Positions 43,837 through 46,233 of a stretch of DNA of 53,845 nucleotides are shown here, piece after piece. Under the pieces are notes generated by a model that was not told where the DNA came from, ran no database searches, and saw only the letters and a program-made list of their open reading frames with translations. Location of the stretch: NCBI RefSeq assembly GCF_004358095.2, contig NZ_SMZJ02000012.1, forward strand, positions 1 through 53,845, in the 5' to 3' direction. The number at the start of each line of letters is the position of its first letter. Positions within the stretch are counted from its first letter, which is position 1. The position numbers and the translations under genes were made by a program. Source of the stretch: Seonamhaeicola sediminis. GTDB lineage: Bacteria; Bacteroidota; Bacteroidia; Flavobacteriales; Flavobacteriaceae.

Positions 43837-44127
43837 ATGAGTAATATTGAAGATATTGTAGATTCTCTTGAAAACAAAATTAGCAAAGTATTACATAAAG
43901 TAGCACTTTTAAAACAGGCTAATTTGAAATTACAGGAAGAATTAAACGCTTCAAAAAAACAAGTTCGAGACCAAAAATTGTTGATAACAGATTGGGAAGA
44001 AAAACATAATGCTCTAAGAATAGCAAATACAATACTTGGTAGTGACGATAACAAAAGAGAAACTAAGCTTAAAATAAACGCATTAATAAGAGAAATAGAT
44101 TATTGTATAGCACAACTTTCAGATTAA
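43837..44127 (+). CDS. Coiled-coil protein upstream of zapA (ZapB-like)
   Basis: 96 residues, almost entirely helical: IEDIVDSLENKISKVLHKVALL, KLQEELNASKKQVRDQKLLI and KLKINALIREIDYCIAQL have the heptad pattern of a coiled coil, with no membrane span. Its length and position, 15 bases before zapA, match a conserved flavobacterial arrangement. ZapB in Enterobacteria is a small coiled-coil partner of ZapA, so a division-ring role is plausible, but sequence similarity is only in the coiled-coil character. Confidence 0.8.
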   Translation: MSNIEDIVDSLENKISKVLHKVALLKQANLKLQEELNASKKQVRDQKLLITDWEEKHNALRIANTILGSDDNKRETKLKINALIREIDYCIAQLSD

Positions 44128-44142
44128 TGCCGCATATATTCA

Positions 44143-44436
44143 ATGTCAGAAAAGCTTAAAATAAAGCTATCTATAGCTAATAGAGTATACCCTTTAACTA
44201 TTGAAGCAAGTCAGGAAGAAGGGTTGCGCAAGGCGGCTAAGAATATTGAATATATGATTAAACAGTTTGAGCAAAGTTATTCTGTGAGAGATAAACAAGA
44301 TGTTTTGGCTATGTGTGCCTTACAATTTGCATCTCAAGTTGAACAGAAATCTATTGATAAAGAGCATGTGAATGAACATGTAGAAATTAAGCTTAAAGCG
44401 CTTAACGAGCTATTACATTCGCATTTAAACTCTTAA
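44143..44436 (+). CDS. zapA: Cell division protein ZapA
   Basis: 97 residues. Binds and bundles FtsZ filaments at mid-cell. The N-terminal domain KLKIKLSIANRVYPLTIEAS and EEGLRKAAKNIEYMIKQFEQSY is diagnostic, followed by DKQDVLAMCALQFASQVE and a C-terminal helix that forms the dimer or tetramer stalk. It is in an operon with the coiled-coil gene, and its end is only 28 bases from the 6S-like RNA. Confidence 0.9.
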   Translation: MSEKLKIKLSIANRVYPLTIEASQEEGLRKAAKNIEYMIKQFEQSYSVRDKQDVLAMCALQFASQVEQKSIDKEHVNEHVEIKLKALNELLHSHLNS

Positions 44437-44464
44437 CGTTCTTTAAAATAAACTAAAAGTTACT

Positions 44465-44634
44465 GCCTACATTGGTTATTTTTTTTGATAAACTCAACGT
44501 TAATTCTTTAAAAAGGGTGAGTTTAAGTTGTAAAAGCATGCTGCCTTAGTCGCAGATCCTTGATCAGCTTGTTAGCCCTAAACTTGTTTTTAAGGAGTTT
44601 ATACAGAATGCACAACTGATGTAGGCTTTTTTTA
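44465..44634 (+). ncRNA. ssrS: 6S RNA (6S-Flavo type)
   Basis: A structured stretch of about 165 bases fits 6S RNA, which binds the housekeeping RNA polymerase and releases it by making a product RNA. A terminal stem of 13 pairs joins GCCTACATTGGTT (44465-44477) with AACTGATGTAGGC (44614-44626), including two G-U pairs, followed by a T run. A second stem ATAAACTC (44488-44495) pairs with GAGTTTAT (44595-44602). Above it is a large asymmetric bubble, then an upper stem AGTTTAAG/CCTAAACT (44520-44527 with 44577-44584). GAGTTTA at 44519 also complements ATAAACTC, giving an alternative fold. Position between zapA and rny parallels zapA-ssrS in Enterobacteria. Confidence 0.75.
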
Positions 44635-44658
44635 TATATAAATCAACTAAATTTAAGA

Positions 44659-46233
44659 ATGGACAACTCAATTATATTGGCAGTAGGAGGTGCGGTTGTA
44701 GGCCTAATATTAGGCTTTATTATTGCAAAGGTTTTAGAAAAGAATAAAGCCTCTAAACTTATCAAAGAGGCTAAAAAAAGTGCTTCCCTCATATTAAAAG
44801 AAGCAAATAGCGAAGGCGAAACCATAAAAAAGGATAAAATACTTCAGGCAAAAGAAAAGTTTATCGAACTAAAGGCAGAGCATGAAAAAGTTATTTTTGC
44901 CAGAGACAAAAAAATGGCTGAGGCCGAAAAAAGAACCAGAGATAAAGAGTCTCAAGTATCAAGCGAACTTTCTAAAGGAAAGAAACTAAATCAAAGTTTG
45001 GAAGACAAAATTAAGGATTACAACCATAGGCTTGATGTACTTGATAAGAAACAGGAAGAACTTGTTAAGCTTCATAAAAGTCAGGTGCAACAGCTAGAGG
45101 TTATTTCTAGTTTATCAGCCGAGGAGGCCAAAGAACAGCTAGTAGAGTCTCTAAAAGGTGAAGCAAAGAATGATGCCATGGCATTTATTCAAAGTTCTTT
45201 AGAAGAGGCTAAATTAACCGCAGAACAAGAGGCCAAAAAAGTCATTATTAATACGATTCAACGTATTGGAACTGAGGAAGCTGTAGATAACTGTGTGTCA
45301 GTTTTCAATATAGAATCTGATGACGTTAAAGGACGTATTATAGGGCGTGAAGGTAGAAATATTCGTGCCATTGAAGCCGCAACAGGCGTTGAAATAATTG
45401 TTGATGATACTCCTGAAGCTATTATTCTTTCTTGTTTTGATTCTGTTAGAAGAGAGATTGCGAGGTTATCATTACATAAATTGGTTACAGATGGGCGTAT
45501 TCATCCTGCTCGTATTGAAGAAGTGGTTAAGAAAACCAAGAAACAAATTGAGCAGGAAATTATTGAAGTTGGTAAGCGTACTGTTATAGACCTAGGTATT
45601 CATAATTTAAATCCAGAATTAATTAAAATGGTGGGACGTATGAAGTATCGTTCCTCTTATGGGCAAAACTTGTTACAGCATTCTCGAGAAGTTGCTAAAC
45701 TTTGTGGCGTTATGGCGGCTGAACTTGGTTTAAACCCCAAACTAGCTAAACGCGCTGGACTATTACATGATATAGGAAAAGTGCCAGATGCTGAAGCTGA
45801 TATGGAAACACCTCATGCTATTTTAGGTATGCAATGGGCAGAAAAGTACGGTGAAAAACATGATGTATGTAATGCTATAGGAGCCCACCACGACGAGATT
45901 GAAATGAAATCATTATTAGCACCTATTATTCAGGTTTGTGATGCTATTTCGGGAGCGCGTCCTGGAGCACGTCGTCAAGTTTTAGATAGCTATATTCAAC
46001 GTTTAAAAGATCTTGAAGATATTGCATTTGGCTTTACAGGAGTTAAAAAAGCCTACGCTATTCAAGCAGGAAGAGAACTCCGTGTTATTGTTGAGAGCGA
46101 AAAGGTAAATGATGATATGGCAGCTGATTTATCATTCAATATTTCTCAAAAAATTCAAACCGATATGACGTATCCTGGTCAGGTTAAAGTAACAGTTATT
46201 AGAGAAACTAGGGCAGTTAATATCGCTAAATAA
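44659..46233 (+). CDS. rny: Ribonuclease Y
   Basis: Membrane-anchored endoribonuclease that starts mRNA decay. 524 residues with an N-terminal helix ([22 protein letters not shown]), a long coiled coil (about 30-200, rich in K, E, A), the KH domain ([26 protein letters not shown]), then the HD domain with [11 protein letters not shown] near residue 370 and [10 protein letters not shown]-terminal signature [21 protein letters not shown]. The gene follows the 6S-like RNA and ends before the convergent xerD. Confidence 0.95.

Follow-up and report, generated by a model that had tools for sequence, protein, structure and literature searches.

The window analyzed here is the whole stretch of 53,845 nucleotides from Seonamhaeicola sediminis. 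Between zapA and rny it contains a gap (44437-44658) for which the sequence comparisons support a 6S RNA gene, an ordinary member of Rfam family RF01685 (6S-Flavo). The features of the locus, with the evidence for each in brackets, are:

43837..44127, + strand: small ORF before zapA, zapB-like (PF06005, 19.1 bits, below the cut-off of 31.5)
44143..44436, + strand: zapA (PF05164, 68.3 bits)
44462..44633, + strand: putative 6S RNA gene (6S-Flavo), full length including terminal stem and U-run (R1 covariance model and RF01685)
44465..44477, + strand: terminal stem P1, 5' strand, 13 pairs (folding)
44488..44495, + strand: inner closing stem P2, 5' strand, ATAAACTC, 8 pairs (folding)
44496..44513, + strand: central bubble, 5' side (folding)
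44502..44513, + strand: 5' arm of a predicted collapse helix, partner 44588-44599 (fold with product RNA masked)
44514..44579, + strand: apical arm, i.e., the upper stem (folding)
44580..44594, + strand: central bubble, 3' side (folding, alignment)
44595..44602, + strand: inner closing stem P2, 3' strand, GAGTTTAT, 8 pairs (folding)
44614..44626, + strand: terminal stem P1, 3' strand, partner of 44465-44477 (folding, covariation)
44627..44633, + strand: U-run of seven T (sequence)
44659..46233, + strand: rny, RNase Y (PF12072, 117.1 bits; HD domain PF01966, 70 bits; KH domain PF00013, 29.2 bits)

The RF01685 match lies at 44492-44600 and scores 112.6 bits against a gathering threshold of 85. 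It covers model positions 1-108 of 108, so that the 6S-Flavo model (Weinberg et al., 2010, PMC2864571) is matched from end to end. This was the sole Rfam match at gathering level in the window and the single RF01685 match genome-wide. The general 6S/SsrS model RF00013 gave no match in the same genome at E ≤ 0.001 with strict filters; of the two Rfam models suggested as a check, 6S-Flavo was thus the one that answered. The RF01685 model omits P1 and leaves P2 unpaired, and the RNA delimited here is longer, at about 170 nt. Its ends were taken from a covariance model, R1, which matched 44462-44633 (158.9 bits, E 1.7e-32); R1 contains the window's own sequence, and its match therefore delimits the RNA and says nothing on its identity. 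The original prediction of a 6S RNA candidate at 44465-44634 is borne out by the RF01685 score and by the covariation described below, and its span of 170 nt was nearly right, the ends set by R1 differing slightly. The gap had also been described as free of protein genes, which holds in that only one frame of 50 aa or longer, a 60-aa frame on the minus strand (44643-44825), reaches into it.

Folding recovered all of the parts that had been noticed by eye, i.e., the 13-pair terminal stem, the 8-pair stem, an asymmetric bubble (44496-44513 versus 44580-44594), the upper stem and the T run. P2 is extended by 5 further pairs beyond a one-base bulge at 44603, and the closing stem, large central bubble and apical arm of the general 6S architecture were all found. 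P1 together with the U-run looks like an intrinsic-terminator-like end of the RNA; 155 of 158 family loci end in GGY followed by at least 4 T. The fold has a z-score of -4.2, and none of 200 shuffles was equally stable.

Two alignments were used for covariation. A1 holds 30 aligned relatives, 17 of them from a single genus (g2), and A2 holds 147 of the 158 family loci, with 11 of the 17 rows of that genus left out. In A1, 99.1% of 1080 cells are paired in the closed fold, and 20 of 36 pairs are changed on both sides as compared to 8.1 in shuffles, with 0 of 500 shuffles reaching this value. In A2, 98.2% of P1 cells are paired, 10 of 12 counted pairs are changed on both sides, and 157 cells are doubly changed versus 43.4 when shuffled; such shuffle counts ignore relatedness, and slid controls, which allow for it, gave far lower values for both the closed fold and P1. 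The apical arm has 12 of 14 counted pairs with both sides changed in A1, and each pair of P2 is formed in 134/145 to 147/147 rows of A2. Covariation in the same gap of relatives, as had been proposed for a check, backs the predicted fold.

The RNA is widespread in the family, which is taken here as Flavobacteriaceae from the name of the Rfam model and from the strong R1 match of a Flagellimonas locus (L139, 161.3 bits). In a sample of one genome per genus (159 genomes), RF01685 was found in 156, above the cut-off in 145, and in 131 of the 131 genomes with at least 90% completeness. For gene order, 158 family loci were compiled from 30 first loci of a phylum sample and 128 matches of the family sample; 19 of the 156 matched genomes, mostly those with the weakest matches, were left out of this set. 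The order orf96-zapA-6S-rny was seen in all of the first 30 loci, where a homologue of the small ORF before zapA was likewise in place in 30/30. Over the full set, zapA-6S-rny is kept in 152 of 158 loci; five more keep zapA-6S but have no rny behind it, and the last is truncated by a contig end. The RNA lies directly 3' of zapA on the same strand in the window and in 157 of the 158 loci, the remaining one being that cut by the contig end. Sub-threshold ZapB matches, as for the small ORF of the window, were also seen for the ORFs before zapA in two loci of other phyla (L103 and L155).

The constant place behind zapA raises the alternative that the structure is merely a zapA 3' UTR with its terminator, or an rny leader, with no 6S function. 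The RNA has no recognizable promoter of its own: the box TAnnTTTG, quoted as a Flavobacterium promoter box in PMC9723704, occurred within 45 nt upstream of the RNA in only 1 of 158 loci. However, the element scores as 6S-Flavo, and its internal covariation is far above that of a terminator. Additionally, five small family genomes (1.4-1.8 Mb, 83-90% complete), which had no Rny match at E ≤ 1e-5, keep zapA-6S (L278 of G422, L279 of G382, L293 of G394, L299 of G379 and L327 of G472), and the RNA therefore appears to outlive rny. Four matches in family f8 of the same phylum, as well as one in family f5, have neither zapA nor rny within 1.5 kb, and those of f8 likewise speak against a 3' UTR or leader. 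We regard this alternative as extremely unlikely, while a 6S RNA could still be cut from the zapA transcript.

Some further features of these loci were observed. In L279, a tyrosine-recombinase-like gene, recognized by eye, follows directly after the 6S RNA and is like the gene behind rny in the window. The motif GTTC[AT]TTA stands directly behind the zapA stop codon in 97 of 158 loci (44438-44445 in the window), in most cases 20-25 nt ahead of the RNA. The 3' strand of the RNA carries TTGA-N15-nAAACYTG (44560-44586 in the window), which has constant spacing in 128 of 158 loci and resembles unusual Bacteroidota promoter boxes save for a nearly fixed C, present at the fifth position of the box in 144 of 147 rows. 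Given this C, a promoter-mimic reading by comparison with TAnnTTTG is offered as a remark at most.

With its family membership, fold, covariation and genomic place observed, the element is very probably a 6S RNA of about 170 nt that would hold the polymerase, template a product RNA and be released by refolding; polymerase binding, product RNA and release are here assigned by analogy with the 6S family. The RNA would form a long rod whose central bubble mimics an open promoter, and this rod would hold the housekeeping RNA polymerase holoenzyme. Once nucleotides are available again, the enzyme would transcribe the 5' side of the bubble and then P2 into a short product RNA, whose synthesis would free the P2 3' strand (44595-44602). 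The freed strand would then pair elsewhere in the RNA, in this case most likely with 44502-44513, and the polymerase-RNA complex would fall apart. The candidate start of the product RNA is likely 44501, the tenth base of ACUCAACnnU, which is T in 125 of 157 loci, and 44488-44495 would be the expected template for its later part. Published work describes 6S-Flavo as carrying out the function of an already validated RNA class (PMC2864571), reports detection of 6S RNA in Flavobacterium psychrophilum (PMC9723704) and gives evidence for product RNAs of the Bacteroides thetaiotaomicron 6S RNA (PMC7366714).

The release step had been proposed as a possible switch in which the P2 5' strand, ATAAACTC, flips from 44595-44602 to GAGTTTA at 44519-44525. 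This part found no support. GAGTTTA can indeed pair with 44489-44495, so the helix can form in the window RNA, and 141-147 of the 147 family rows retain a 5-bp core of it. However, covariation was absent and shuffles paired equally well: in A1 the helix is 57.9% paired, a figure biased by genus g2, with 500 of 500 shuffles as high and 0 pairs changed on both sides, and in A2 it is 88.0% paired, with 349 of 500 shuffles as high and 1 pair doubly changed in 1 cell. All 17 g2 rows of A1 break at least 3 of its 8 pairs in the aligned register. Furthermore, its 5' strand is the product-RNA template and would be occupied during release if the mechanism follows the cited account (PMC8876501). The switch was dropped for its lack of covariation in both alignments and is very improbable; its conserved 5-bp core may serve in a folding intermediate or have some other cause.

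The 5' bubble and then the P2 5' strand serve as template for the product RNA in known 6S RNAs. The freed P2 3' strand forms a hairpin with the 3' bubble in E. coli, and in Bacillus subtilis a collapse helix with the distal part of the 5' bubble (PMC8876501). To model release by refolding, 14 nt up to and including the tenth base of ACUCAACnnU, a guessed start, were masked in 153 of the 158 loci; five loci that lacked a motif were dropped. In the resulting folds, the predicted partner of the freed strand was the distal 5' bubble in 73 loci, the 3' flank in 33, the 3' bubble, as a hairpin, in 32 and the apical arm in 1, with 14 mixed or without a partner. As 17 of the 32 in the 3'-bubble hairpin class come from genus g2, the counts without this genus are 73 for the collapse helix, 33 for the flank, 15 for the 3'-bubble hairpin, 14 mixed or none and 1 apical. 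Masking 10 nt instead gave 80 distal 5' bubble, 28 flank, 24 3'-bubble hairpin, 1 apical and 20 mixed or none. An earlier reading of the 3'-bubble hairpin as the release device of the whole family was rejected as an artefact of A1, in which 17 of 30 rows are from genus g2 and all belong to that class.

P2 was formed in 146 of 153 free RNAs. With 14 nt masked, the mean predicted refolding gain was -4.62 kcal/mol, compared to -2.16 when the three partner regions were shuffled with their base composition kept; it beat the mean of a locus's own shuffles in 145 of 153 loci, and 195 of 1530 shuffles were as good. For the window the gain is -5.0 kcal/mol, with 22 of 500 shuffles as good. The predicted collapse helix 44502-44513/44588-44599 has 80.3% of its cells paired in the 147 rows. 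The two refolding helices that were counted showed no covariation, because the P2 3' strand is nearly invariant. On a tree of ZapA and Rny fragments (135 rows, 124 labelled), in which 12 of 132 inner branches are well supported and 76 poorly, the three refolding classes took 19 changes versus 45.2 when shuffled. Thermodynamic modelling thus makes recapture of the freed P2 3' strand likely, whereas its exact partner, 44502-44513 here and others elsewhere, is a prediction. The collapse helix predicted for the window lineage resembles that of B. subtilis 6S-1 RNA (PMC8876501); unlike it, other genera of the family are predicted to use an E. coli-like 3'-bubble hairpin or the 3' flank.

Across the phylum sample, RF01685 matched 37 of 296 genomes, 13 of them above the cut-off, which indicates that the model is narrow. 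R1 hardly improved on this, with 40 of 296. R1 was also run over 59 loci spanning up to 8 kb around rny (52 around rny, 49 of these Bacteroidota by title, and 7 controls), a set in which a 6S gene elsewhere lies outside its view. It gave 12 matches at E ≤ 1; the nine at E ≤ 0.004 were all on the rny strand and all in the zapA-rny gap. At E ≤ 1 it missed 6 of the 7 control loci from other families or phyla, and the one matched (L033) had an E of 0.076. In family f2, of the same order, all six model matches are linked. In other families of the phylum, RF00013 gave sub-threshold matches (42 of the 296 genomes, none above the cut-off), and all 30 of those whose loci were examined sit between zapA and rny, which argues that these weak matches are real. 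In a further 40 Bacteroidota public genomes, RF00013 gave 0 matches at E ≤ 0.01. A zapA gene precedes rny in 52 listed loci, 40 of which are Bacteroidota by title; in 21 of these 40, including Bacteroides and Prevotella, the gap is below 130 nt when measured to the first possible rny start codon, i.e., as a lower bound. The zapA-6S linkage is lost in many Bacteroidota.

The window RNA shares with RF00013, the family of E. coli and other 6S/SsrS RNAs, both the rod with a central bubble and a zapA gene upstream, and differs in having rny where Proteobacteria have the 5-FTHF cyclo-ligase gene fau (PMC7641849 and PMC9130861). These papers give the order zapA-ssrS-(fau) for beta- and gammaproteobacteria (PMC7641849) and place ygfA/fau next to 6S in alpha- and gammaproteobacteria, some beta- and deltaproteobacteria, and Firmicutes (PMC9130861). 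The original prediction held that the zapA linkage was kept across phyla. Public genomes were scanned for a conserved Rny motif by means of a DNA pattern that favours CGN codons; this yielded at least 119 loci, and 118 of their genomes (L071 left out) were searched with RF00013 at E ≤ 0.01, phylum names being read from record titles. The genomes fell into four sets of 34, 40 (the Bacteroidota above), 22 and 22, which gave 21, 0, 12 and 7 matched genomes, 40 together; 15, 0, 9 and 4, together 28, were over the cut-off.

In 10 of the 40 matched genomes (9 of the 28 over the cut-off) the RNA lies between zapA and rny on one strand. All ten are in the first set, which is biased, as its 34 genomes were picked after loci with zapA near rny and Rfam results for 20 loci were known. 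By title, they are Desulfobacterota (Desulfobacteraceae L155, Desulfobacterales L067, Desulfobulbaceae L087, Smithella L089 and a deltaproteobacterium, L110), Nitrospinota (Nitrospinaceae L103), Rokubacteria (Rokuibacteriota L075) and Acidobacteriota (Acidobacteria L152 and L123, and Holophagaceae L106, in which the 6S match is sub-threshold and ZapA weak). In L149, rny lies downstream of the 6S match and a contig end upstream. For the other 29 matches, neither zapA nor rny was seen within the flanks, which reach up to 1.5 kb and in some cases stop at a contig end; among these 29 are Armatimonadota, Planctomycetes, one Bacteriovoracaceae genome and the Bacillota. Among the last 44 genomes searched, mostly Bacillota, Actinobacteria and Planctomycetes by title, 0 of 19 matched genomes were linked. 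The predicted linkage thus stood for a set of Gram-negative phyla, in which it is common, was not seen in the Bacillota- and Planctomycetes-titled genomes examined and is lost in many Bacteroidota. Its reach is wider than the cited literature passages state, with several other phyla sharing the place, and is not universal.

Among the linked loci, the Nitrospinaceae L103 has the order zapB-like gene, zapA, 6S, fau (PF01812, 117.1 bits) and rny, and so bridges zapA-6S-rny and the proteobacterial zapA-ssrS-fau. Three side observations concern the same genes. In L156 (5182-6999), zapA-fau-rny was seen with no 6S found between, the sub-threshold 6S match of that genome being on another stretch; in L114, L072 and L147, a 5-FTHF cyclo-ligase homologue adjoins rny with no 6S found between; and Alkalicoccus (the genome of L077) has two separate 6S matches over the cut-off, L341 and L352, neither of them near zapA or rny.

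The linkage in Bacteroidota and Proteobacteria might have arisen twice, by coincidence. This would fit the 30 genomes, out of 40 matched by the general 6S model, for which no linkage is shown, the 21 Bacteroidota-titled zapA-rny loci without room for a 6S RNA, and the unlinked f8 and f5 matches. However, 10 of 40 matches falling in a short zapA-rny interval within megabase genomes is, by our estimate, far above random, strand and order are identical in four phylum-level groups besides Bacteroidota, and L103 unites both patterns in one locus. We therefore consider coincidence unlikely, though more credible since none of the 19 further matched genomes was linked, a result that also lowered our belief in an ancestral arrangement. 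The phyla with the linkage group together in many bacterial trees. An old shared neighbourhood with repeated loss would be the simplest account of the gene order.

Under a plausible but tentative reading, zapB-zapA-6S-(fau)-rny would be an ancestral cassette that predates the split of Bacteroidota, Acidobacteriota, Desulfobacterota, Nitrospinota and Proteobacteria, and within the family the release part would have been swapped among the collapse helix, the 3'-bubble hairpin and the 3'-flank hairpin while the captured strand stayed fixed. As part of the same reading, zapA-ssrS-fau of E. coli would possibly be a remnant from which rny was lost.

The RNA itself is ordinary, being carried by nearly all sampled genera of the family. 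What the locus adds is a zapA-6S bond found outside Proteobacteria, and gene order can flag 6S RNAs whose scores fall short of the Rfam thresholds. Natural variants from related laboratory flavobacteria offer a comparison for the release step. If the ancestral cassette is true, transcription, cell division and RNA decay would have become coupled in their growth-rate control at an early stage of that bacterial branch.
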